DNA of 64,000 nucleotides from Flavobacterium sp. SUN046 (lineage in GTDB: Bacteria; Bacteroidota; Bacteroidia; Flavobacteriales; Flavobacteriaceae). Numbering within the stretch: the first letter of the stretch is position 1; each line of letters opens with the position of its first letter. The notes beneath the pieces are model-generated. The model saw only the letters and a list, made by a program, of their open reading frames with translations, did no database searches and had not been told where the DNA came from. Both the position numbers and the translations under genes were made by a program. The stretch spans positions 1 through 64,000 of the forward strand of contig NZ_JAPQNT010000009.1 in NCBI RefSeq assembly GCF_028867965.1, given 5' to 3'. Positions 49,581 through 63,879 of the stretch are shown here, piece after piece.

Positions 49581-51140
49581 ATGAAAAAAATTACTTTATT
49601 ACTTTTATTCAGTATCACATTGGGATACTCACAAATGCCTACAAGCGCTGCACCAACTCCGCCAGCAAGAAATGCAACCGATGTAATATCTATTTATGGG
49701 TCAGTTTACTCAAATATATCGGGAGTAAATACAAATCCAAATTGGGGACAAAGTACAGCAGTTACAGAAGTTTCTATTTCTGGAAATAATGCGCTTCAAT
49801 ATGCCAATTTTAATTATCAAGGTACTGATTGGGCTGGAAATGTTCAAAACATTTCAGGTTTTGAATATCTACATGTTGATGTTTGGACCAATTCTCAAGC
49901 GCCAAATGTATTTGCAATTAGCACCGGACCAGAAATTCCACATGCAATATCAAGTGTGCCAGGTTCATGGCAATCTCTTGATATTCCGGTTGCGGGACTT
50001 ACAGGAAATTCTAATAATGTTATTCAATTTAAATTTGACGGTGGAAACGGCGGTACAATTTACTTAGATAATTTATATTTTTGGAAAACTCCACCAGCAT
50101 CAGGATCAGATGCAACATTAAGTGATTTAAAAGTTGCTGGTACTACTGTTCCTGGTTTTAATTCAAGTGCTACATCTTATACATACGAATTAGTAGTAGG
50201 AACAACAACAGTTCCTCAAATTACATCGGCAACTCCTAATGATCCTGCTGCAACTTCTGTTACAATTAATCAAGCTCCATCAATACCTGGTAATGGTACC
50301 GTAGTTGTTGTTTCTCAAAACGGAAATGTAACGAAAACATACACAGTTTCTTTTGTTGCAACATTACCAAATCCATCTCCAACACCTTCAACTCCACCAT
50401 CTGAAGTTTTAAGTATTTATGGTGATACTGGTGGTTTTACAAATATTTGGGTACCAAATTATAATTTTGGTAGCAATGAAGGATATCCTGATTTAGACCC
50501 ATCTGCTGCTGTTAATCAAGCTATTAAAATGAATTTTGCTACAGCTGGTTATGGTGAAGGAACAAGTGGTGTTACAGATATTACGGCTTACAATTGGTTG
50601 CATTTTGACTATTTTGCAGACTCTAATTCAACTCAAATAAGATTTATAGTTATAGGAAATAATGGTGGTGTTGTAGAATATCCATATGAATTAACTACTA
50701 CAGGAAGTAACGGTACACTTATTCAAGGTTCTTGGCAAAGTGTTAATGTGCCATTGAGTTTCTTTCAAGGTTCAGGATTCAATAAAGCTACATTTTTTCA
50801 ATACAAACTGGGTACTACATCTGATTTAGTTTCGGATATTGTTTATTTTGATAATATTTATTTTTCTGCTAATCCAGGAACAATACTTGCTAATCAAAAC
50901 TTTAATCGCGACGTAGTTACTGCTTATCCAAACCCAACTCAAAATGAGTGGAATATTAATTTGAATCAAAATATTACTTCAATTCAATTGTTTGATTTAG
51001 TTGGAAAGAAAGTAAATGTATCAACAAATTTTGATGGTTCTAATGTTGTAATTAATGCTTCTGAATTATCTAATGGTATTTATTTTGCAAATATTGTAAC
51101 TGATAAAGGAACTAGTGTTGTAAAATTAATTAAAAACTAA
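49581..51140 (+). CDS. T9SS-secreted glycan-binding protein with CBM-like and cadherin-like domains
   Basis: 519 residues. A signal peptide (ending GYSQ) precedes a beta-sandwich module (about 30-170; NPNWGQSTAVTEVSISGNN, then YLDNLYFWK) also present in the lipoprotein at 57595-59466. A cadherin-like beta-sandwich domain follows (about 178-260, DATLSDLKVAGTTV), then a second carbohydrate-binding-like module (about 275-430) and a type IX sorting domain (AYPNPTQNEWNI, NGIYFANIVTDKG). No catalytic motif seen, so it likely binds glucan at the surface. A 26-bp candidate operator lies 176 bases upstream. Confidence 0.75.
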   Translation: MKKITLLLLFSITLGYSQMPTSAAPTPPARNATDVISIYGSVYSNISGVNTNPNWGQSTAVTEVSISGNNALQYANFNYQGTDWAGNVQNISGFEYLHVDVWTNSQAPNVFAISTGPEIPHAISSVPGSWQSLDIPVAGLTGNSNNVIQFKFDGGNGGTIYLDNLYFWKTPPASGSDATLSDLKVAGTTVPGFNSSATSYTYELVVGTTTVPQITSATPNDPAATSVTINQAPSIPGNGTVVVVSQNGNVTKTYTVSFVATLPNPSPTPSTPPSEVLSIYGDTGGFTNIWVPNYNFGSNEGYPDLDPSAAVNQAIKMNFATAGYGEGTSGVTDITAYNWLHFDYFADSNSTQIRFIVIGNNGGVVEYPYELTTTGSNGTLIQGSWQSVNVPLSFFQGSGFNKATFFQYKLGTTSDLVSDIVYFDNIYFSANPGTILANQNFNRDVVTAYPNPTQNEWNINLNQNITSIQLFDLVGKKVNVSTNFDGSNVVINASELSNGIYFANIVTDKGTSVVKLIKN

Positions 51141-51307: not shown

Positions 51308-54127
51308 ATGCAAAATGTAAATTGGGTAAAAAAATTATCTTTATTTATTTTGTTGATTTCACTTTTTGGCTACTCTCAAGAGCTTCCACCAATAATAAAA
51401 TATTCACCTTCTGTTTGCGGTGCAGGAAATCAAAACTGGACAATTTCTCAAGACAAAAATCGATTTGTTTATTTTGCTAATAATGATGGTTTGTTAGAAT
51501 TTGATGGTTCAACTTGGACGTTAAATCCGTCACCTAATGAAACTATTATTCGATCTGTTAAAGTTATAGATGATAAAATATACACAGGCTGTTACATGGA
51601 GTTTGGCTATTGGAAAAGACAAAGTAACGGTCAATTAAAATATGTTTCTTTAAGTAATTCAATAAATAGTAAAATTCTTTATGAAGAACAATTTTGGAAT
51701 ATAATTAACTACGATCAATGGGTTGTATTTCAGTCTTTAAGTAGAATTTACATCTATGATACTAAGACAAAAAAATTCAAAATTATTTCACCTAAAAACA
51801 GCATAACCAAAGCTTTTAGAACTCCTAATGCTATTTATTTTCAAGTGTTAAATGAAGGACTATTTGAAATTGAAAATGGAAAAAGTAAGTTGGTTTCAAA
51901 TAATGATTTATTTAAAAACAGTAAAATTGTTTCTATTTTTGGAAATGAAGGTGATTTATTGATTCAAACGCAATCTTTAGGATTATACAAATTAAAAGAC
52001 TCAAACTTAACGAGATTTACTACCGAAGCTGATTCACAATTATTATCAAATACGGTTTATAGTTGTCAACAATTATCAGATAAAAATCTTGCTATTGGCA
52101 CAGTTTCAAATGGAATTTATATTCTATCAGAAAATGGTACTATTAAATACCATATCACACAAAGTAAAGGATTGAGTAATAATACTGCCTTATCACTGTT
52201 TGAAGATTTAGATAAAAATCTTTGGGTTGGGTTGGATAACGGAATCAATTGTATCAATTTGCAATCACCTGTAAAAAGTTATTCCGACAATACCGGAATG
52301 TTAGGAACGGTTTACACTTCTATTTTGCATAACGGTTTTATTTACATTGGTACCAATCAAGGTTTATTTTATAAAAAATATGAATCTACCGATGAATTTA
52401 AGTTTATAAATGGCACAAAAGGTCAAGTTTGGTCATTATTTGAATACCAAAACACTCTTTTTTGTGGTCATGATTCTGGAACTTTTATTGTTGAAAATGA
52501 ATCGGTTAAATCTATATTTTCTCAATCGGGTACATGGAAATTTGAACCTGTTCCAAATAATAAAGATGAATTATTTCAAGGAAATTATTACGGAATTTCA
52601 ATTTTAGAAAAAATAGGCAATCAATGGGTTTTTAAAAATAAAATTTCTGGATTTGATTTTTCATCTCGGTATTTTGAACCATCTGGATCTAATGAAATAT
52701 TTATAAGCCACGAATATAAAGGAGTTTTTAGAATTAAAGTTAATCCAAGTTTGACTAAAGTAATTAAATTTACTACTTATAATTCGCCCAAAAAAGGAAA
52801 AAATTCCTCTTTAATAAAATTTAATAACTCAATTTACTACGCTTATAAAGAAGGTGTTTTTAAATTAAATCCAGCGACTAATAAATTTGATAAAGACCTA
52901 CAATTAAGTTCTGTTTTTGAAAATGATGAATATACTTCTGGAAAATTAATTACTGATAAGTCTAATAAAATATGGTTGTTTTCTAAAAATTATATCCATT
53001 ATTTTTCAATGAGTAAATTGGGAACTGAATTAAAACAGAATATTATTCCAATTCCGTCATCTTTAACCAATTCAATGTTAGGTTTTGAAAATATTTTTCA
53101 ATTGTCTAATTCTTTATATCTTATTGGAACTACAGATGGATATTACACTATAAATATTAACGATTTAAGTTTTAGAAATTATAGAGTTTCAATATCAAAT
53201 ATCAATATTAATAAATTAAATCAAAAGAATACTAATTGTTCAATTTCAACAAAAGGTGATTTTAAGTACGACGAAAATAACATCACTTTTAATTACACAG
53301 TTCCAGAATATAACAAATATATAAATGCCGAATATCAATATTCACTAGAAGGATTTCAAGATGAATGGAGCGAATGGAATGCCAAATCAACAGTGAATTT
53401 TAAAAATTTATCTTCTGGTGATTATACTTTTAAAGTACGCGCAAAAATTGCAAATTCCTCGCTTGAAAATATAGCTTCTTATTCATTTACCGTTTCTAAA
53501 CCATGGTATGCAACTAATTTAGCAATTATTTTATATTTTATTATCATATTAATTGTTGCCTACAGAATTAATAAAGCTTATAAAAACTATTACAAAGAAA
53601 AAGAACAAAATCTTATTGATGAAAATAATTTGTTGCTTGAAATTAAAGAACTTGAATCAGAACAACAATTGATGAAGTTACGTAATGAACAACTTTCACA
53701 AGATGTTGATAGTAAGAGTCGTGAATTAGCAGTTTCAACTATGAGTTTAATTAATAAAAATGAGCTACTTACCGTAATTAAAGAAGATTTAAAGAAGACA
53801 AACGATGATGGTGGAAACAGAAATATAAAATCTGTAATACTAGCAATTAATAAAAATATATCTGAAGAAGATACTTGGAGAGTTTTTAAAGAAGCCTTTG
53901 ATACAGCCGATAAAGACTTTTTGAAAAAAGTAAAACTAGCGCATCCGCTATTAACACCAAACGATTTAAGGCTTTGTGCTTACTTAAGATTAAATCTTTC
54001 GTCTAAAGAAATAGCTCCTTTATTAAATATTTCTGTTCGAAGTATTGAAATAAAACGATATCGTTTGCGTAAAAAGATGGAATTAACCCATGAACAAGGT
54101 TTAGTAGAATATATTTTAGGAATTTAA
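51308..54127 (+). CDS. SusR-like membrane-spanning transcription regulator with LuxR-type HTH
   Basis: 939 residues. After a signal peptide (ending GYSQ) come beta-propeller repeats of the two-component-regulator-propeller type (for example LFEDLDKNLWVGLDNGINCI at about 298-317), then a Y_Y_Y domain (about 660-730, EYQYSLEGFQDEWSEWN), one membrane helix (about 737-757), a coiled coil and a C-terminal helix-turn-helix (about 875-935, LTPNDLRLCAYLRLNLSSKE, then SVRSIEIKRYRLRKK). No kinase or receiver domain is present, so ligand binding in the periplasm must act directly on the cytoplasmic DNA-binding part, as proposed for SusR. It should control this locus. Confidence 0.85.
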   Translation: MQNVNWVKKLSLFILLISLFGYSQELPPIIKYSPSVCGAGNQNWTISQDKNRFVYFANNDGLLEFDGSTWTLNPSPNETIIRSVKVIDDKIYTGCYMEFGYWKRQSNGQLKYVSLSNSINSKILYEEQFWNIINYDQWVVFQSLSRIYIYDTKTKKFKIISPKNSITKAFRTPNAIYFQVLNEGLFEIENGKSKLVSNNDLFKNSKIVSIFGNEGDLLIQTQSLGLYKLKDSNLTRFTTEADSQLLSNTVYSCQQLSDKNLAIGTVSNGIYILSENGTIKYHITQSKGLSNNTALSLFEDLDKNLWVGLDNGINCINLQSPVKSYSDNTGMLGTVYTSILHNGFIYIGTNQGLFYKKYESTDEFKFINGTKGQVWSLFEYQNTLFCGHDSGTFIVENESVKSIFSQSGTWKFEPVPNNKDELFQGNYYGISILEKIGNQWVFKNKISGFDFSSRYFEPSGSNEIFISHEYKGVFRIKVNPSLTKVIKFTTYNSPKKGKNSSLIKFNNSIYYAYKEGVFKLNPATNKFDKDLQLSSVFENDEYTSGKLITDKSNKIWLFSKNYIHYFSMSKLGTELKQNIIPIPSSLTNSMLGFENIFQLSNSLYLIGTTDGYYTININDLSFRNYRVSISNININKLNQKNTNCSISTKGDFKYDENNITFNYTVPEYNKYINAEYQYSLEGFQDEWSEWNAKSTVNFKNLSSGDYTFKVRAKIANSSLENIASYSFTVSKPWYATNLAIILYFIIILIVAYRINKAYKNYYKEKEQNLIDENNLLLEIKELESEQQLMKLRNEQLSQDVDSKSRELAVSTMSLINKNELLTVIKEDLKKTNDDGGNRNIKSVILAINKNISEEDTWRVFKEAFDTADKDFLKKVKLAHPLLTPNDLRLCAYLRLNLSSKEIAPLLNISVRSIEIKRYRLRKKMELTHEQGLVEYILGI

Positions 54128-54456: not shown

Positions 54457-57400
54457 ATGAAAAAATTAATTCTATTTCTATTTTTTTGTTGTTTTTCATT
54501 CCAAGTTCATGCCCAAGCTGATAAAGTATCAGTTGTAAACGAACAAAATAACTTTAAACTACTAGTTAACGGTAAGCCACTTTTCATAAACGGTATGAAT
54601 TGGAATTATGATCCTATTGGTACTAATTACAACTACAGTTTATGGAAACAATCTGATGAAGTAATTAAAGCGGCTCTTGACAACGAAATGAGTATGTTAA
54701 AAAATATGGGAGTTAATACAATCAGACAATATGTAGGAATTCAGCCCAAGTGGATAACTTATATTTATCAAAAATATGGTATTTACACTATGCTTAATCA
54801 TTCATTTGGGAGATACGGTCTGACTTTAAACGGTAATTGGGTTCCAAATACAGAATATTCAAATCCAGCAACTAGAGAATTATTGTTGAAAGAAACGCAA
54901 GACATGATTCAGGAATATAAAAACACACCAGGATTGTTATTATTCCTTTTAGGAAATGAAAACAATTACGGATTATTTTGGGATGGAGCCGAAACTGAAA
55001 ATATACCACTAGAAGATAGAAAATCAACCAAAAGGGCTAAAGATTTATATAATTTATTCAATGAAGCTGTTGTTGTAATGAAAAAAATCGATACATCACA
55101 TCCGATAGCTATTTGTAATGGTGATTTACTTTTTCTTGACATAATTGCTCAAGAATGTAAAGACATTGATATTCTTGGAACTAATATGTATCGCGGTGTT
55201 TCTTTTGGAAATGCTTTTCAACAAGTGAAAGAAAAACTTAATAAACCAGTTCTATTTTCAGAATTTGGTGCTGATGCTTACAATGAAATTGATAAAGCTG
55301 AAGATCAAAAATCGCAAGCCTATTACATGGTTAATAACTGGAAAGAGATTTATGAAAATGCTGCCAATTTAGGAAAAGCAGGAAATTCATTAGGTGGTTT
55401 TACTTTTCAATTTAGTGATGGTTGGTGGAAATATGCTCAAACAAAAAACTTAGATATTCACGATACTAATGCTTCATGGTCTAATGGTGGTTACACTAAT
55501 GACTTTGTTCAAGGACAAAATAATATGAACGAAGAATGGTTCGGAATATGTGCAAAAGGTCCAGTAAGTCCTAGAGGTTTATATGATTTATACCCAAGAG
55601 CAGCTTATTATGCTCTTAAACAAGCTCATAATATAAATCCGTATGAAAGCGGAACTACTTTAGAAGGAATTTCTACTTATTTCAATAACATTCAATTAAT
55701 GGATGCTGTATTAAAAGCAAGAGGAGATAAAGCTGCACTTGTTGGAAATAGTTCTGATAAATTGAGAATTAGTAATTTAAGAGCCGAGTTTACAACATTC
55801 AATACAGGAGGAAGTTTAATTACTACGCCAGATGTAGCCGATACAAGTGTGAAAAAATATCCGAATCAATTGGGATTTGACCACATGGAATCTTATTATT
55901 TTGGAGTTGAAGGAAATCCTACTTCTAACATGCAAGCCAATGTTAATGTAAATGTTTTAGGTAATGTTGCTAGTAATCCAATAAATGAAATTTTTTATGA
56001 AAATCGTGGTAGAACACAAACAGTAACTACACCAAGCGGAACAGTTGATTTAACTGATGCTAATAGAGTTCAAGTGTATAATGCATCTTACAATTGGAAT
56101 GCTAAAGAGTTTGATTTAAGAGGTTTTTACAGAACAGGTCATTATCATTGGGGATATGAAGGCGATTTCTTCGGATTGTATCCTGAAGCTAATTATGGAC
56201 CAAACCTAGATATATATAACGGAGAAACATTAGGTTTTGAAGTAGATGGTAAAAAAAGCTTAAACGGATTGAAAGCCGCTTTCGGACCTCAATTATGGTG
56301 GGGTGCAAATCCTGCAGTTTTATTAAAATACAATCACAAACTAGGAAAAATTGATGCTACAGCCGTTTATCACGAAGATATTGACAATGCAGCAGCAGCA
56401 ACAACATCAATAGCAATTCCTTTACCAAAAACGCGCAGAGTAACACTTCACTTGAAAACTAAATTGGATGCTTTCGGATTTGAATTAGGTGGAATTTGGG
56501 GTGGACAACCTTTAAATGGTCGAACTTTTCAATATGCAGAAGGAACGTCAGGCAATTACACAATTTATGATGATAAAGTAAATTCTAAAGACAATTGGGG
56601 TGGAAAAGCTAAAATTACTTTTTCTAAAGGTAAATTTAACATGTATTCACAAGGAGCAATAATGGGTTTAGTAGCGAATGGAGGTGCAGATAATACTAAA
56701 ACTTTTACAGGTTGGCGATTAAAAGACAGTGGAAGTGGTAACCAAGCTAATTTTTTAACAGGATTTACTTATAATTTTGGAAATTTTCAAGTAGCACCTA
56801 ACTTTTTATGGCAAAAACCACTTGTAGACGCAATGCCAAATGATGTAAATGCTCCAGGCAGATTAAGAAATATTCAAGCTGATCCATTTATAGTTAGAGT
56901 TAATAGAGAAACTATTGGTGGTGAATTGTTGTTAACTTATGACCCAACTCCAGCAACTTGGATGTATGAATGGGATAACGATATGACAGAAGATGCTAAA
57001 TTTGCAATAAGTACAGATTTTGTTTACCGTCATTTACCAACCACTCAAGATGCTGCAATAGGATTTTTAAGCAATCGTACTGCTTTTGCTTTTGCAAATT
57101 CTGCGCCAGCACATGACTTATGGGAATCCAATACAAGAATAGTTTCTAAATTATCACCTGATTTTGGATTAATAACCAATTTCTATTTTGGAAATGCACA
57201 AGCCAACGGTAGTGATACAAGATTGATAGAAAGAATCGGTGCCGATGTTAGAGTAATTTATAAAAAAATTAAGATTACAAGTATGGTAAAGGTTAATGAT
57301 TGGGGTCCGTATGATTATCACCGAGATTTCAATTTGACTTATCCACTTCAATTAATGTTAGATATCTCTACTTGTGTAGGAAAACCAGATTGGTTCATTT

Positions 57401-57582
57401 TACCAAATACCAAAATAGGAATAATGGGAACTTGGCGTTCTCTTGACCAATATTCACCAAGATATTCTCCTAATCAAACTGCAACTGCTTTTTCAACGGC
57501 ACCAATAATAAGTCCAGTTGGATTTAATAATGGTACAGAATGGGAAATTAGAACCTACATTCATATAAATATCGGAAAATAA
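54457..57582 (+). CDS. Clan GH-A glycosidase fused to an outer-membrane beta-barrel domain
   Basis: 1041 residues with a signal peptide (ending VHAQ, about 1-20). Residues about 30-400 are a TIM-barrel glycosidase of the GH2/GH5/GH17 clan: LFINGMNWNYDPIG, MLKNMGVNTIRQYV, LLGNENNYG with acid/base Glu168 and VLFSEFGADAY with nucleophile Glu269. The second half (about 430-1041) has no catalytic motifs but long amphipathic strands with aromatic girdles, such as RTGHYHWGYEGDFFGLYPEA and GADVRVIYKKIKITSMVKVN, and ends in RTYIHINIGK, which I read as an outer-membrane barrel. It has neither lipobox nor T9SS tail, fitting barrel insertion. Substrate inferred to be beta-1,3-glucan from neighbours. It heads the downstream operon. 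Confidence 0.75.
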   Translation: MKKLILFLFFCCFSFQVHAQADKVSVVNEQNNFKLLVNGKPLFINGMNWNYDPIGTNYNYSLWKQSDEVIKAALDNEMSMLKNMGVNTIRQYVGIQPKWITYIYQKYGIYTMLNHSFGRYGLTLNGNWVPNTEYSNPATRELLLKETQDMIQEYKNTPGLLLFLLGNENNYGLFWDGAETENIPLEDRKSTKRAKDLYNLFNEAVVVMKKIDTSHPIAICNGDLLFLDIIAQECKDIDILGTNMYRGVSFGNAFQQVKEKLNKPVLFSEFGADAYNEIDKAEDQKSQAYYMVNNWKEIYENAANLGKAGNSLGGFTFQFSDGWWKYAQTKNLDIHDTNASWSNGGYTNDFVQGQNNMNEEWFGICAKGPVSPRGLYDLYPRAAYYALKQAHNINPYESGTTLEGISTYFNNIQLMDAVLKARGDKAALVGNSSDKLRISNLRAEFTTFNTGGSLITTPDVADTSVKKYPNQLGFDHMESYYFGVEGNPTSNMQANVNVNVLGNVASNPINEIFYENRGRTQTVTTPSGTVDLTDANRVQVYNASYNWNAKEFDLRGFYRTGHYHWGYEGDFFGLYPEANYGPNLDIYNGETLGFEVDGKKSLNGLKAAFGPQLWWGANPAVLLKYNHKLGKIDATAVYHEDIDNAAAATTSIAIPLPKTRRVTLHLKTKLDAFGFELGGIWGGQPLNGRTFQYAEGTSGNYTIYDDKVNSKDNWGGKAKITFSKGKFNMYSQGAIMGLVANGGADNTKTFTGWRLKDSGSGNQANFLTGFTYNFGNFQVAPNFLWQKPLVDAMPNDVNAPGRLRNIQADPFIVRVNRETIGGELLLTYDPTPATWMYEWDNDMTEDAKFAISTDFVYRHLPTTQDAAIGFLSNRTAFAFANSAPAHDLWESNTRIVSKLSPDFGLITNFYFGNAQANGSDTRLIERIGADVRVIYKKIKITSMVKVNDWGPYDYHRDFNLTYPLQLMLDISTCVGKPDWFILPNTKIGIMGTWRSLDQYSPRYSPNQTATAFSTAPIISPVGFNNGTEWEIRTYIHINIGK

Positions 57583-57594
57583 TTTTAAAAAAAA

Positions 57595-59466
57595 ATGAAT
57601 ATGAAAAATAAAAAAATTAATTATTTAAAAATCACTTTCCTTATTGGACTGGCGCTTACAGCATGCATTAGTTGTCAGAGAGATTTATCAGATGATGCGG
57701 TATTGTCAACTTACTCTAAAAACGGAGATGTTTTTATTGATGCTTTTAGTGCTGGCCTAGGTTATGGAGCTTTTGGTGGCTCTAAATACACTGCATTTTC
57801 AGTTGACAATGAAGTGAAACATTTAGGAACAACTTCTATGCGATTTGACGTGCCTAATGTTGGAGACCCGCAAGGTGCGTATGCAGGCGGTGTATTTATT
57901 GATGCTTCAGGTAGAAATTTAACAGATTATGATGCCTTGACATTTTGGATTAAAAGTTCTCAAGGTGCCTCATTAAACGAAGTTGGATTCGGAACTGATT
58001 TTGCAGCAAATAAATATAATGTTGTGCTAAAGAATGTTAGTATTGCTACCAATTGGCAAAAAGTAATTATTCCTATTCCAGATGCTTCAAAACTACTTCA
58101 AGAAAAAGGAATGTTTTGGTATTCTGAAGGACCAGAAAACGGACTCGGATACACGTTTTGGATTGATGATGTAAAATTTGAAAAATTAGGTACAATTGCT
58201 TATCCAACACCTTCTATTCTTGATGGATTGGACAAAGTAGAACAAACATTTATAGGGTCTAATAGTACTTTGTCTGGCCTTTCTGAAACCTTTAATATGC
58301 CAACAGGCGCAAATCAAACAGTTTCATTAGCGCCAAGTTATTTCACATTTATATCATCAAACCCAAGTGTTGCAACAGTTGATGAACTCGGTAAAGTTTC
58401 AGTAATAGGAAGCGGTACAACAATTATAACGGCTAAATTAGCTGGTAAAGACGCATTAGGATCATTAACATTAACTTCTTTAGGCGTTTTTACTCCTGCG
58501 CCAACACCTACAAAAGATGCAGCTAATGTAATTTCTATTTTTAGTAATGCTTACACCAATGTACCTGTAGAATACTATAATGGTTTTTATCAACCTTATC
58601 AAACTACTTTAGGCGGAAATGATATTCATATTAATAACGATGATATCATTAGATATACAAATCTTAACTTTGTTGGAACACAGTTTTCTCAACCAACAGT
58701 TGATGCTTCACAAATGACATATCTTCATGTTGATATTCAAGTTCAAGAAGCAATGACAGCTGGTGATCACATTAAAGTTCAATTGGGTGATTTTGGTGCA
58801 AATGCAGTTTTTGGTGGCGGCGATGATACTAATGGTAGTGTAAATTTTACAAATACTAGTTTCACAACTGGAAGTTGGGTTGGGTTAGATATTCCGTTAT
58901 CAAGTTTTACAGGATTAACAAGCAAAAGCCATTTAGCACAAATATTATTTATTTCTGATGCTACTATTTCTAATATTTTAGTTGATAACATTTATTTTTA
59001 TAAAGTTCCTACAGCTCCAACTACAGCAGCTCCAACTCCTACAGTTCCATCTGCAAATGTTCTATCTGTTTTTAGCGATGCTTACACCAATGTTGCTTCT
59101 AATTTGAATCCTAATTGGGGTCAAACTACAGTTGTAACTCAAGTGGCAATTGCAGGAAATAATACATTAAAATATGCAGGTTTAAATTATCAAGGACTTC
59201 AATTTGCAAGCAGTCAAAATGTTTCAGCAATGACTTTTTTACATATTGATTATTACAGCGCTAATTCAACTTCATTAAAAACCTATTTAATTAGCACTGG
59301 TCCAGTTGAAAAGGCTAAAATTTTAACCGTGCCAACTTCTACCGGTTGGAATAGTATTGAAATTCCTTTGTCTAATTTTTCACCAGTGAATCTTGCTGAT
59401 ATAATCCAAATGAAGTTTGATGGAAATGGAGATATTTATTTAGATAATATTTATTTTCATAACTAA
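57595..59466 (+). CDS. Surface glycan-binding lipoprotein with repeated CBM-like domains
   Basis: 623 residues. A lipoprotein signal ends at the Cys of LALTAC (about residue 23), with a second Cys soon after. Four parts follow: a CBM-like sandwich (about 45-200, ending YTFWIDDVKFEKLG), a BIG2-type immunoglobulin-like domain (about 205-300, FISSNPSVATVDELGKVSVI), and two related sandwich modules (about 308-465 and 475-623), each opening ANVxSxFSxAYTNV and ending in DNIYF. The last two resemble the N-terminal module of the T9SS protein at 49581. Likely a SusE/SGBP-like capture protein. It begins 12 bases after the barrel-fusion gene. Confidence 0.75.
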   Translation: MNMKNKKINYLKITFLIGLALTACISCQRDLSDDAVLSTYSKNGDVFIDAFSAGLGYGAFGGSKYTAFSVDNEVKHLGTTSMRFDVPNVGDPQGAYAGGVFIDASGRNLTDYDALTFWIKSSQGASLNEVGFGTDFAANKYNVVLKNVSIATNWQKVIIPIPDASKLLQEKGMFWYSEGPENGLGYTFWIDDVKFEKLGTIAYPTPSILDGLDKVEQTFIGSNSTLSGLSETFNMPTGANQTVSLAPSYFTFISSNPSVATVDELGKVSVIGSGTTIITAKLAGKDALGSLTLTSLGVFTPAPTPTKDAANVISIFSNAYTNVPVEYYNGFYQPYQTTLGGNDIHINNDDIIRYTNLNFVGTQFSQPTVDASQMTYLHVDIQVQEAMTAGDHIKVQLGDFGANAVFGGGDDTNGSVNFTNTSFTTGSWVGLDIPLSSFTGLTSKSHLAQILFISDATISNILVDNIYFYKVPTAPTTAAPTPTVPSANVLSVFSDAYTNVASNLNPNWGQTTVVTQVAIAGNNTLKYAGLNYQGLQFASSQNVSAMTFLHIDYYSANSTSLKTYLISTGPVEKAKILTVPTSTGWNSIEIPLSNFSPVNLADIIQMKFDGNGDIYLDNIYFHN

Positions 59467-59501: not shown

Positions 59502-60317
59502 ATGAATATAAAGAATAATAGATTTTGGAATAACACAATCATAATTTGCTGTTTGTATTTGGTATCAGGTTGCTCTGTTGATGAAAAACAAAAAGTAACA
59601 AATTATACCAATTTGGTAATGCAAGACGAATTTAGTACAGACGGCGCATTAAGTAATTCATTATGGAATTATAATATCGGAACAGGTGCTAATGGCTGGG
59701 GAAATAACGAATTAGAATATTATACCGACCGACCTGAAAATGTTAAGATTGAAAACGGTATGCTGAAAATTACAGCTATAAAAGAGTCTTACATGGGTTC
59801 GGCTTATACTTCGGCAAGAATAACAACCAAAGGTAAGTTTACCCAAAAATATGGTCGATTTGAAGCTCGTATAAAAATGCCTTATGGTCAAGGAATGTGG
59901 CCAGCTTTCTGGTTATTAGGTGAAAATAGCGATGCCGTAGTTTGGCCTCAATGTGGTGAAATTGACATAATGGAATTTAGAGGTCAAGAACCATCTACAA
60001 CTAATGGAACTATTCACGGACCAGGATATTCTGGTGCATCAGCAATTACTAAATCATACACTTTACCTAATGATAGATTAGATACTGATTTTCATGTTTT
60101 CGGAATTGAATGGGGAGAAAATTATATTAATTTTTATGTTGATGATGTTTTGTACAACCAAATTACTCCAGAAAAAGCTAATGGTCAATGGGTATTTGAT
60201 CAACCTTTTTATATAATAATAAATCTAGCAGTTGGTGGAAATTTTGTAGGTGCACCAAATACGCAAACCGTTTTTCCTCAATCAATGTTAATTGATTATG
60301 TGAGAGTTTACAACTAA
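59502..60317 (+). CDS. GH16 endo-beta-1,3-glucanase (laminarinase) lipoprotein
   Basis: 271 residues. The signal ends in a lipobox (LVSGC), so the enzyme is lipid-anchored, probably on the outer membrane. The single domain is a GH16 jelly roll with the catalytic GEIDIMEF motif: nucleophile Glu153, Asp155 and acid/base Glu158. NNELEYYTDRPENVKIENG and RFEARIKMPYGQGMWPAFWL are typical of bacterial laminarinases, and the protein ends with MLIDYVRVYN. It should cut beta-1,3- (or mixed 1,3-1,4-) glucan into short oligosaccharides. It lies 35 bases after the binding lipoprotein gene. Confidence 0.92.
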   Translation: MNIKNNRFWNNTIIICCLYLVSGCSVDEKQKVTNYTNLVMQDEFSTDGALSNSLWNYNIGTGANGWGNNELEYYTDRPENVKIENGMLKITAIKESYMGSAYTSARITTKGKFTQKYGRFEARIKMPYGQGMWPAFWLLGENSDAVVWPQCGEIDIMEFRGQEPSTTNGTIHGPGYSGASAITKSYTLPNDRLDTDFHVFGIEWGENYINFYVDDVLYNQITPEKANGQWVFDQPFYIIINLAVGGNFVGAPNTQTVFPQSMLIDYVRVYN

Positions 60318-60414: not shown

Positions 60415-63400
60415 ATGAGTAATAGTCAAACCTTATTTGCCGAAAATGAAACTAAGTCAATTGCAATGGAAATTGTTTCAATTAACGATGAAAAATATTA
60501 TAAAATAGCCAATAACGATGCTATGCGTCCGTTTTTCATGAGTATTGTGAGCGATTCCAATCATTGGATGTTTTTATCAAGTAATGGTGGATTAACAGCT
60601 GGTAGAAAAAATGCTGAGTTTGCACTTTTTCCTTATTATACAGATGATAAGATTACAGAATCCTATGATATTACCGGAAGCAAATCGATTTTTCAAATCC
60701 AGCATAATAATGAAATTCACATTTGGGAACCTTTCTCAGAACGGTTTTCGCATAATATGTTTAACGTTTCTCGAAATTTATATAAAAACCTTTACGGAAA
60801 TAAAGTAGTTTTTGAAGAAGTAAACCACGATTTAAAAATCACTTTTCGATATCATTGGAACTCAAGTAATAAATTTGGATTTGTCAGAAAATCAGAATTA
60901 ATTAATCAATCTGAAACTAATTATCAGATAAATGTACTTGATGGAATCCAAAACATTCTTCCTTTTGGTGTAACAAGTGATTTGCAAAACGCCGCAAGTA
61001 ATTTGGTCGATGCCTATAAAAGAAGTGAATTACACCAACAAAGCGGCTTAGGAATATTTGCTTTAAGTGCAATAATAGTTGACAAAGCCGAACCAAGTGA
61101 AGCATTAAAATCAAATATAGTTTGGTCTATCGGGATGAAAAATCCATCTTATTTAGTTTCATCATTACAACTTTCAAAATTCAGAAATAAACAAAAAGTA
61201 ACTTTAGAAGACGATATTAAAGGCGAAAAAGGAGCTTATTTTTTAAATTCTGAAATCATTTTAAATCAAAATTCAAAACAAGATTGGACAATTATTGCTA
61301 ATGTCAACCAAGATCATTCGGATATTGCTCAAATAATAAACACCATTCAAACTGAAAAAAATCTTGAAGAAGTAATTAATCAGGACATTGAGTTAGGAAC
61401 AAAAAAACTTATAGAACTCAATGCTTCGTCTGATGCTTTGCAACTTACAAATGATAATTTAAGAGATACACGACATTTTGCCAATACACTTTTCAATATT
61501 ATGCGTGGCGGAATTTTCGATTTTAATTATCAAATAGAAAAACAAGATTTCTTAAATTATATCGAGAAAGCAAACCATTTAGTTTATCAAAAATTAGAAA
61601 AAAGCTTAAACCAACTCACAGATTTATTTAGTTTAGAAACCATAAAAGAATTTGCATCTAAGCAAAATGATTCTGATTTTGAACGATTAAGTTTAGAATA
61701 TTTACCGTTAAAATTTAGTAGAAGACACGGCGATCCAAGCCGACCTTGGAACAAATTTTCAATCAATACACAAAGTGAAATTGACGGTTCTAAAATTTTA
61801 GATTATGAAGGTAACTGGCGTGATATTTTCCAAAATTGGGAAGCATTGGCACATTCGTTTCCAGATTTTATCGAAAATATGATTCATAAATTCCTAAACG
61901 CAACCACTTTTGATGGGTACAATCCGTATCGAGTTACCAAAGATGGTTTTGATTGGGAAACCGTCGAAGAAGACAATCCTTGGTCGTACATAGGATATTG
62001 GGGCGATCATCAAATAATTTATTTGTTGAAATTCTTAGAAATAATCGAAAAACACCAACCCAAAAAATTAGAAGAACTTTTTAATAAGGATATTTTTGTT
62101 TATGCCAACGTACCTTATGTTATAAAATCATACGATGATATTCTTAAAAATCCAAAAGATACAATTGAATTCAATCACGATTTAGACATAAAAATTCGTG
62201 AAGAAAGAACTAAAATTGGAGCCGATGGAACTTTATTAAAAGATGCTAACGGCGACATTTATAAAGTCAATTTAATTGAAAAATTGTTGGCTACCGTTTT
62301 AGCTAAAATGTCGAATTTTATTCCAGAAGGTGGAATTTGGTTGAACACACAACGTCCAGAATGGAACGATGCCAATAATGCTTTAGTTGGAAATGGAGTT
62401 TCGATGGTTACTTTATATTACTTGAGAAGATTTTTAAATTATTTCCAAAAATTAGTTGAAAATACTGAAGTTGAAAGCATCAAAATATCTAATGAAATGG
62501 TAGAATTTTATCATTCAATAAGAGAAAATTTAATCAAGTTTGAGCCTTCTTTAAAAGGAAAATTCAATGATTTCGAAAGAAAAACGATTTTAGATGTACT
62601 CGGAAATGCCGCTTCAGAATACCGAAATCAAGTATATCAAAATGGCTTTTGGGGTAATAAAAGAACACATTCAATGACTGGTTTAAAACAATTTATTGAA
62701 GTAAGTTTAAAATTTATCGACCATTCTATTGAGGCAAATAAAAGAGAAGACAATTTGTATCACGCTTATAATTTAATGACCGTTGAAAACGAAAAAGAAG
62801 TATCAATTTCTTATTTAAGCGAAATGCTCGAAGGTCAAGTTGCCGTTTTGAGTTCAGGATATTTATCTCCCAAAGAAGCTTTAAATGTTTTAGACGGTTT
62901 GAAAAACAGCAAACTTTTTAGGCAAGATCAATACAGTTATATTTTATATCCAAACAAAAATTTGTCAAAATTCCTTGAGAAAAATACAATTTCAAGTGAA
63001 GTTGTGTCTAAATCAGAATTATTAACCAATTTAATTGCCGCAAATAATACCCAAATAATTAAGAAAGACTGCAACGGAATTTACCATTTTAACGGAAATT
63101 TTAAAAATGCTGGCGATTTAGAAATTGCCTTAGAGTCACTTTCAAAAACATCTTTTGCTAAGCAAGCAGAAAAAGATAAAAAACAAGTATTACATGCATT
63201 TGAAACTATTTTTAATCACAAATCATTTACAGGTCGTTCGGGAACATTTTATGGTTATGAAGGTTTGGGTTCGATTTATTGGCACATGGTTTCCAAATTG
63301 CAATTGGCAGTTCAAGAATGTTGCTTAAAAGCCGTTGAAGAACAAGAATCAGATGAAGTAATAGGAAGATTATTAGAACATTATTACGAAATCAATGAAG

Positions 63401-63879
63401 GAATTGGCGTGCACAAATCACCTCAATTATACGGTGCTTTTCCAACCGATCCTTATTCGCATACACCAGCAGGAAAAGGCGCACAACAACCTGGAATGAC
63501 AGGTCAAGTCAAAGAAGACATTTTATCTCGTTTTGGAGAATTAGGTGTTTTTGTTACAAATGGAAAACTATATTTCAATCCGTGTTTGTTGCGAAAAGAT
63601 GAATTTCTTTCAGAAGCTAAATCATTCAATTATGTAGATGTAAATTTCAATTCAAGAACAATTGAAATGCAACCAAATTCTATTTGTTTTACTTATTGTC
63701 AAATTCCAGTTGTATACACAATTTCCAATCAAAAAAGGATTGAAGTTAGTTATAGCAATAACACAAATGTAAATTTTGACGGATTAATTATGGATGCTAA
63801 AACTAGTAAACAAGTTTTCGGTAGAACTGCTGAAATCAGTCAAATTAGAGTAGCTATTTTAGAAAGTGAATTGAAATAA
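60415..63879 (+). CDS. Putative GH149-like beta-1,3-oligoglucan phosphorylase
   Basis: 1154 residues, no signal peptide, so cytoplasmic. The N-terminal part (about 15-280) is a beta-sandwich of the GH94/GH149 phosphorylase type (SSNGGLTAGRKNAEFALFPY). A linker leads to an alpha/alpha barrel with RRHGDPSRPWNKF, SYIGYWGDHQ (Asp531 a likely general acid), TQRPEWNDANNALVGNGVSM and a C-terminal GRSGTFYGYEGLGSIYWHM with HTPAGKGAQQPGMTGQVK, probably the phosphate and substrate loops. The size and layout match GH149 enzymes, which split beta-1,3-oligoglucans with phosphate to give glucose 1-phosphate. A related GH94/GH161-type specificity is possible. The next gene begins four bases after the stop. 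Confidence 0.75.
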   Translation: MSNSQTLFAENETKSIAMEIVSINDEKYYKIANNDAMRPFFMSIVSDSNHWMFLSSNGGLTAGRKNAEFALFPYYTDDKITESYDITGSKSIFQIQHNNEIHIWEPFSERFSHNMFNVSRNLYKNLYGNKVVFEEVNHDLKITFRYHWNSSNKFGFVRKSELINQSETNYQINVLDGIQNILPFGVTSDLQNAASNLVDAYKRSELHQQSGLGIFALSAIIVDKAEPSEALKSNIVWSIGMKNPSYLVSSLQLSKFRNKQKVTLEDDIKGEKGAYFLNSEIILNQNSKQDWTIIANVNQDHSDIAQIINTIQTEKNLEEVINQDIELGTKKLIELNASSDALQLTNDNLRDTRHFANTLFNIMRGGIFDFNYQIEKQDFLNYIEKANHLVYQKLEKSLNQLTDLFSLETIKEFASKQNDSDFERLSLEYLPLKFSRRHGDPSRPWNKFSINTQSEIDGSKILDYEGNWRDIFQNWEALAHSFPDFIENMIHKFLNATTFDGYNPYRVTKDGFDWETVEEDNPWSYIGYWGDHQIIYLLKFLEIIEKHQPKKLEELFNKDIFVYANVPYVIKSYDDILKNPKDTIEFNHDLDIKIREERTKIGADGTLLKDANGDIYKVNLIEKLLATVLAKMSNFIPEGGIWLNTQRPEWNDANNALVGNGVSMVTLYYLRRFLNYFQKLVENTEVESIKISNEMVEFYHSIRENLIKFEPSLKGKFNDFERKTILDVLGNAASEYRNQVYQNGFWGNKRTHSMTGLKQFIEVSLKFIDHSIEANKREDNLYHAYNLMTVENEKEVSISYLSEMLEGQVAVLSSGYLSPKEALNVLDGLKNSKLFRQDQYSYILYPNKNLSKFLEKNTISSEVVSKSELLTNLIAANNTQIIKKDCNGIYHFNGNFKNAGDLEIALESLSKTSFAKQAEKDKKQVLHAFETIFNHKSFTGRSGTFYGYEGLGSIYWHMVSKLQLAVQECCLKAVEEQESDEVIGRLLEHYYEINEGIGVHKSPQLYGAFPTDPYSHTPAGKGAQQPGMTGQVKEDILSRFGELGVFVTNGKLYFNPCLLRKDEFLSEAKSFNYVDVNFNSRTIEMQPNSICFTYCQIPVVYTISNQKRIEVSYSNNTNVNFDGLIMDAKTSKQVFGRTAEISQIRVAILESELK

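Follow-up and report, generated by a model that had tools for sequence, protein, structure and literature searches.

What a glycosidase does in front of an outer-membrane barrel is the question raised by an open reading frame (ORF) of Flavobacterium sp. SUN046 (contig NZ_JAPQNT010000009.1). In the window, the 64,000-nucleotide stretch analyzed, positions 54457-57582 encode a protein of 1041 residues, in which a glycoside hydrolase (GH) of clan GH-A precedes some 600 residues taken for a porin-like barrel in an initial annotation. The coordinates are exact, and the opposite strand is dense in stop codons. The fusion is confirmed, and both the enzyme and the predicted barrel are well supported by computation. 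We infer, with somewhat more confidence than doubt, that it forms a channel for glucan in the outer membrane and carries its own beta-1,3-glucanase on the periplasmic side, assisted by a surface glycan-binding partner. The parts of the gene are the following.

54457..54513, + strand: signal peptide, residues 1-19 (cleavage site between VHA and QAD, by eye; no lipobox)
54526..55632, + strand: clan GH-A TIM-barrel enzyme domain, GH158-like, residues 24-392
54958..54960, + strand: Glu168, putative acid/base, in an LGNE motif after beta4, aligned to a GH158 glutamate
55261..55263, + strand: Glu269, putative nucleophile, in SEFG at the end of beta7, aligned to a GH158 glutamate
55633..55761, + strand: partly helical linker, residues 393-435, around which stand-alone relatives stop
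55762..57579, + strand: predicted outer-membrane beta-barrel, residues 436-1041, about 24 strands (AlphaFold2, fold comparison, strand statistics)

AlphaFold2 predicts a closed barrel, not a soluble fold, both in the full-length model and in that of the barrel alone (pLDDT 82, pTM 0.81). About 24 strands are counted by DSSP, two of which (592-598 and 605-612) are short, and the reading as a barrel stands. Two fold-comparison listings of 50 rows each contain, as far as we recognize them, outer-membrane barrels throughout, apart from a single mitochondrial TOM entry; the title of one row says no more than 'membrane protein'. The fusion barrel aligns end to end with usher barrels. Hydrophobic alternation within the strands averages 2.67, against 1.46 +/- 0.22 in shuffled sequences, none of 2000 reaching the observed value, and 1.39 in the TIM strands; it is weak in strands 1 and 4 (0.2 and 0.9). 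Inward-facing residues are more conserved (0.84 vs. 0.69), and two turns stand out by their length, 12 and 21 residues. Model and sequence together thus feature what is expected of an outer-membrane barrel, namely signal peptide, closed antiparallel barrel, alternation, short turns with long loops, and C-terminal strand. Aromatic girdles, also claimed at first, are not clear, the aromatics in five bins across the strands being 12, 2, 11, 9 and 9. For the barrel, searches by sequence found no relative in PDB and, up to E 10, none in Pfam.

Alignments of 17 and of 57 full-length sequences (the window's own included) show no variation at Glu168 and Glu269, nor does an alignment of 10 enzyme domains with and without barrel. 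In the model they lie after beta4 and at the end of beta7 of a TIM barrel, the positions of acid/base and nucleophile in clan GH-A, as proposed initially. E137 and E220 of BuGH158 sit at the same positions (PMC7157763). The signal peptide and the lack of a lipobox, both judged by eye, and the lack of a type IX secretion system (T9SS) tail in Pfam and NCBIfam scans likewise agree with the first description. Conservation is 0.79 in the enzyme, 0.76 in the barrel and 0.64 in the linker.

The family of the enzyme is approached from two sides. GH158 structures (BuGH158, 6pal; GH158(Pro), 9p25) occupy ranks 1-6 in Foldseek; among the matches listed by VIA-align, GH158 is at the top, tied with a GH2 glucuronidase, identity to GH158 being 17-22%. 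The best PDB profile match is BuGH158, a remote one (E 1.4e-7), and identity to 9p25 is 22% over 291 residues. The GH2 TIM-barrel domain PF02836 is matched as well (37.6 bits, cut-off 21), and database names for the relatives are 'glycoside hydrolase family 2 TIM barrel-domain containing protein', 'glycosidase' or 'hypothetical protein'. GH2 enzymes carry N-terminal sugar-binding and Ig-like domains ahead of the TIM barrel; none is found here, as the TIM domain begins at about residue 24. GH158 endo-beta-1,3-glucanases have the same catalytic pair as the fusion (PMC7157763). The C-terminal domain of BuGH158 is Ig-like (PMC7157763), whereas the fusion has a membrane barrel in that place, into which residues 393-435, partly helical in the model, run straight.

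A gene that is apparently the same, judged by gene order without sequence comparison, is the 'GH2 beta-glycosidase' of Muricauda laminarin loci, found beside GH16 and GH149 and upstream of GH17A-GH30-MFS-GH17B (2026; PMC13188888). It is taken in the discussion of that paper as a beta-1,6-glucosidase, and the part of the account available makes no mention of a barrel. Strain 2012CJ35-5 in the list of the same paper is the strain of fusion locus L107.

The architecture is conserved. Of 7996 candidates scored in a protein search, 5512 match at E <= 1e-3, perhaps with some remote TIM-barrel relatives among them, and at least 560 stretches of genome contigs encode a relative of the enzyme. The best 80 of these, which by this choice lean to full-length relatives, are all stop-free, near full-length fusions, and reside in Flavobacterium, Saprospiraceae, Chitinophagales, Cytophagales, Bacteroidales and others. 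Among 395 genomes sampled evenly across the phylum, 43 have the enzyme, 33 of the 43 within frames of at least 1000 residues, long enough for the barrel. Full-length relatives also occur in Cyclonatronum and Balneolales. In Bacteroides finegoldii (L197, NZ_OY725931.1) the order is fusion, hypothetical gene, GH16, two genes and bglX, with no SusC/SusD among the 15 features listed in the incomplete PLSDB gene tables; the 'plasmid 29' concerned also carries rpsA, and may be a chromosomal piece.

Three candidate barrel-only genes (P0170, P0191, P0217) start inside linker or barrel without a signal peptide, and are read as cut gene calls. In 198 genomes all 23 full barrel matches lie in frames of at least 1046 residues; the 24th is what is left of a barrel, 63 residues following a stand-alone enzyme (G119). 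Fusion genes with split or interrupted frames (L125, L135, L137, L140) reflect decay or assembly errors. Remote enzyme-domain relatives (about 27% identity) without barrel were met in L126 (G077) and L127 (G240), the former adjoining GH149, GH17 and a major facilitator superfamily (MFS) transporter.

The model bears on the side of the membrane at which the enzyme works. Outer-membrane barrels have long loops outward and both termini in the periplasm, and in usher barrels the domain ahead of the barrel is periplasmic. Since the model has the beginning of strand 1 and the end of strand 24 both at the side of the short turns, the enzyme domain, being N-terminal to the barrel, is likely periplasmic and not at the surface, where it had been placed initially; the usher alignment agrees, as do the plain signal peptides seen by eye in 5 of 10 stand-alone relatives. 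Of the rest, 4 have a lipobox and one is ambiguous (L130). A lipobox pattern occurs in 3 of 118 fusions, the pattern being crude and start codons not curated. That the enzyme is instead displayed outside the cell, feeding its own channel, could draw on these 4 lipobox copies, which could be surface-exposed, and on the operon partners with lipoboxes, by eye, that may be surface lipoproteins. The position of the enzyme ahead of strand 1 on the short-turn side, along with the lack of a T9SS tail and of any autotransporter family match, makes surface display quite improbable. Autotransporter barrels have 12 strands; the fusion has about 24, and its C-terminus matches no type V barrel family. The chaperone-usher barrels FimD and PapC do have 24 strands, and the fusion barrel has no sequence match to them.

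The genes around the fusion suggest the substrate. Those within the window are:

51308..54127, + strand: Y_Y_Y / LuxR-type regulator, likely the operon regulator (Y_Y_Y above cut-off; GerE 22.2 bits, cut-off 23.5)
57595..59466, + strand: lipoprotein resembling carbohydrate-binding modules CBM11/CBM30 (LTAC lipobox by eye; CBM_11 28.1 bits, cut-off 27; CBM30 below cut-off)
59502..60317, + strand: GH16 laminarinase-like lipoprotein (VSGC lipobox by eye; PF00722 103.8 bits; solved laminarinases at E ~1e-72)
60415..63879, + strand: GH149 beta-1,3-glucan phosphorylase (NF058639 1816 bits, cut-off 1150; no signal peptide by eye)

The CBM-like gene starts 12 bp after the fusion, and from the fusion onward the genes are spaced by 12, 35, 97, 4, 4, 23, 3 and 20 bases. 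Past the window the series continues with GH17, GH30, MFS-GH17, GH17 and finally a GH16 that has a T9SS tail. The first GH17 matches the solved GH17 structure 6fcg, which we take to be the Formosa enzyme, at E 1e-167; the GH30 has an N-terminus resembling a signal peptide by eye. Judged by its genes, this predicted operon is of the laminarin type. Relatives of the regulator are found in 60 of 81 loci. Promoters (31 vs. 33.3 in shuffles) and terminators (3 vs. 2.5) are not in excess. The Muricauda GH30, in a gene order similar to that of the window, is predicted cytoplasmic (PMC13188888). A 519-residue protein with a T9SS tail, encoded at 49581-51140 of the window, clusters by sequence with the CBM-like lipoprotein, and is perhaps a secreted glycan-binding paralogue.

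In the genome of the strain (G000, 99.98% complete) GH149 is found once and GH16 twice, all within the operon. The GH16 lipoprotein two genes downstream speaks against the earlier idea that the fusion replaces a surface hydrolase. The genome has 5 SusC genes above cut-off; by BLAST, applied to the surroundings of these 5 and not to those of 7 weaker SusC matches or other porins, no relative of the operon GH16, GH17, GH30 or GH149 is found there, and one of the 5 has a GH3 nearby. With no SusCD beside the operon, glucan entry is naturally looked for in the fused barrel. Transport in the opposite direction, with the barrel exporting polysaccharide as AlgE, BcsC or PgaA do with partner hydrolases, is very improbable, since the neighbours (GH149, GH16, GH17, GH30, MFS symporter) look catabolic, in a survey not systematic for glycosyltransferases, and fold similarity among barrels is not specific.

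The 782-residue MFS_2 symporter fused to GH17, encoded just past the window (L119:6699-9047; G000:C36:66698-69046), is the inner-membrane counterpart of the fusion in the same predicted operon. In Formosa, where FbGH17A, FbGH30 and FbGH17B were studied as a cascade on laminarin, with FbGH30 removing beta-1,6 branches, the MFS-GH17 fusion was regarded as previously undescribed (PMC6246565). That protein, FORMB_24740 (FbGH17b), likewise joins a glycoside hydrolase to a membrane transporter and is encoded in a laminarin cluster; it differs from the fusion studied here in membrane (inner), transporter fold and enzyme family (PMC6246565). No fusion of a glycosidase to an outer-membrane barrel was found described in the titles and abstract openings listed, which take in few subscription journals.

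Loci were compared according to the presence of the barrel. To the 80 named loci 38 fused ones were added by hand (29 from the 33 of the even sample, 9 from the longer list), and all barrel-less candidates were taken in except G591, at a contig end. Dropped before counting were 5 of 122 fused rows (L097, L135, L137, L138, L139) and 5 of 15 enzyme-only rows (L125, L132, L134 and L140, incomplete; L136, fused to GH16), and 117 complete fused loci were compared with 10 complete loci having the same enzyme without barrel. A CBM-like gene comes next in 116 of the 117 and in none of the 10 (Fisher 5e-14, kinship ignored), counting genes of at least 130 residues with the midpoint downstream. Under a stricter rule, skipping overlapping ORF starts, CBM-like genes are next in 101/117, and GH16 lies 1.4-3.6 kb away in 14. 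The sole complete fused locus without a recognized CBM-like next gene, L163 (G144:C41), has an 816-residue ORF there instead. GH16 is the second gene in 101/117 fused loci (10 contig ends), and GH149 directly follows the enzyme in 7/10 stand-alone loci. In L136 (G637:C16) a GH16-like domain, by eye, takes the place of the barrel at the C-terminus of the enzyme, directly before GH149. The lipobox pattern, with the same caveats as above, occurs in 68/110 CBM-like proteins and 74/103 GH16. A FastTree phylogeny of the enzyme domain (11 barrel-less tips) requires 8 Fitch changes from a fused root, under midpoint rooting and with several weak supports. Barrel and downstream CBM-like gene are absent together and thus act as one unit, which would suit a channel working with a partner at the surface.

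In the scheme we favour, the GH16 lipoprotein would shorten a laminarin-type glucan outside the cell, and the CBM-like lipoprotein would keep it near the pore. Chains would go through the ~24-strand barrel, the GH158-like domain at its periplasmic mouth cutting them as they arrive. GH17A and GH30 would finish and debranch the products, the MFS-GH17 protein would carry oligosaccharides inside, and GH149 would yield glucose-1-phosphate. Of the initial picture of an enzyme feeding sugar into its own channel, the fused barrel, possibly a channel delivering sugar, is retained; the surface position is not.

The fusion is no SusC in sequence. It matches neither the plug domain PF07715 nor a SusC family in Pfam or NCBIfam, in contrast to the SusC at L120:387-3428, which matches plug domain and receptor barrel family. 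SusC/SusD features 22 strands and SusD as partner, the fusion a CBM-like partner, an enzyme ahead of the barrel and, by a count from the model that includes two short strands, about 24 strands. Bacteroidetes clusters of carbohydrate-active enzymes without susCD pairs are mentioned in a GH149 paper (PMC5827456).

Several observations weigh against a channel with a periplasmic enzyme. Where 7 kb or more lie upstream, as in 94 fused loci, 82 show no SusC/SusD pair in the stretch and 12 do (5/58 named loci, 7/36 others). Of 8 stand-alone loci, 4 have both SusC and SusD and the other 4 neither in the stretch (Fisher 0.02, kinship ignored; SusD pieces shorter than 300 residues in L087, L134 and L136, and the SusC/SusD beside the broken L140, are excluded). 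Barrel and SusCD are thus not simply interchangeable: replacement of SusC, as first suggested, fits the 82 loci and not the 12, and as a strict rule is rejected. Selfish laminarin uptake in Formosa was ascribed to SusCD-like transporters, and a separate porin is induced there by laminarin and glucose (PMC6246565). A CBM-like gene resides elsewhere in the stretch in 4 of 10 stand-alone loci (L120, L121, L122, L131), so that what is missing is the neighbour behind the barrel, not always the family. The lipoboxes of 4 of the 10 stand-alone enzymes, and the ambiguous one, count here too. The pTM of the full-length model is 0.56, by which the placement of the enzyme relative to the pore is not fixed. 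Of 15 complete MFS genes in the fused loci none reaches 700 residues, a count omitting genes cut by stretch ends and hence biased against long ones, and the double fusion is not supported as a general rule. No transport or enzyme assay on the fusion protein was found in the literature.

Part of these data would suit a barrel that is mainly an anchor, keeping a glucanase in the periplasm close against the outer membrane while glucan enters via SusCD or other porins. The SusC and SusD near 12 of the 94 fused loci, the 4 of 10 stand-alone copies with a lipid anchor instead, and the separate Formosa porin (PMC6246565) fit this explanation. Yet a lipid anchor would serve and save 600 residues, conservation in the barrel is higher among inward residues, the CBM-like neighbour is missing where the barrel is missing, and none of the 5 SusC loci checked in G000, within the limits given, has glucan enzymes. 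We regard the anchor as rather unlikely. The channel reading admits a bolder form, only slightly less doubtful than the anchor, in which hydrolysis acts as a ratchet: the chain slides into the wide barrel and the fused glucanase trims the arriving segments, preventing slip back, with neither SusCD nor TonB. Were it true, this organism would have, together with the MFS-GH17 protein, a fusion of transporter and hydrolase in each of its two membranes, the enzyme in both cases being where the sugar arrives.

In water, laminarin is one of the main currencies of carbon, and SusC/SusD is the usual explanation for how Bacteroidota take it up. The architecture described here is real and widespread, Pfam gave no family for its barrel, and it may be a second route for glucan uptake. 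If the barrel is a channel, some glucan clusters filed without a transporter do have one, and hydrolysis gating or driving polysaccharide import would become directly testable.
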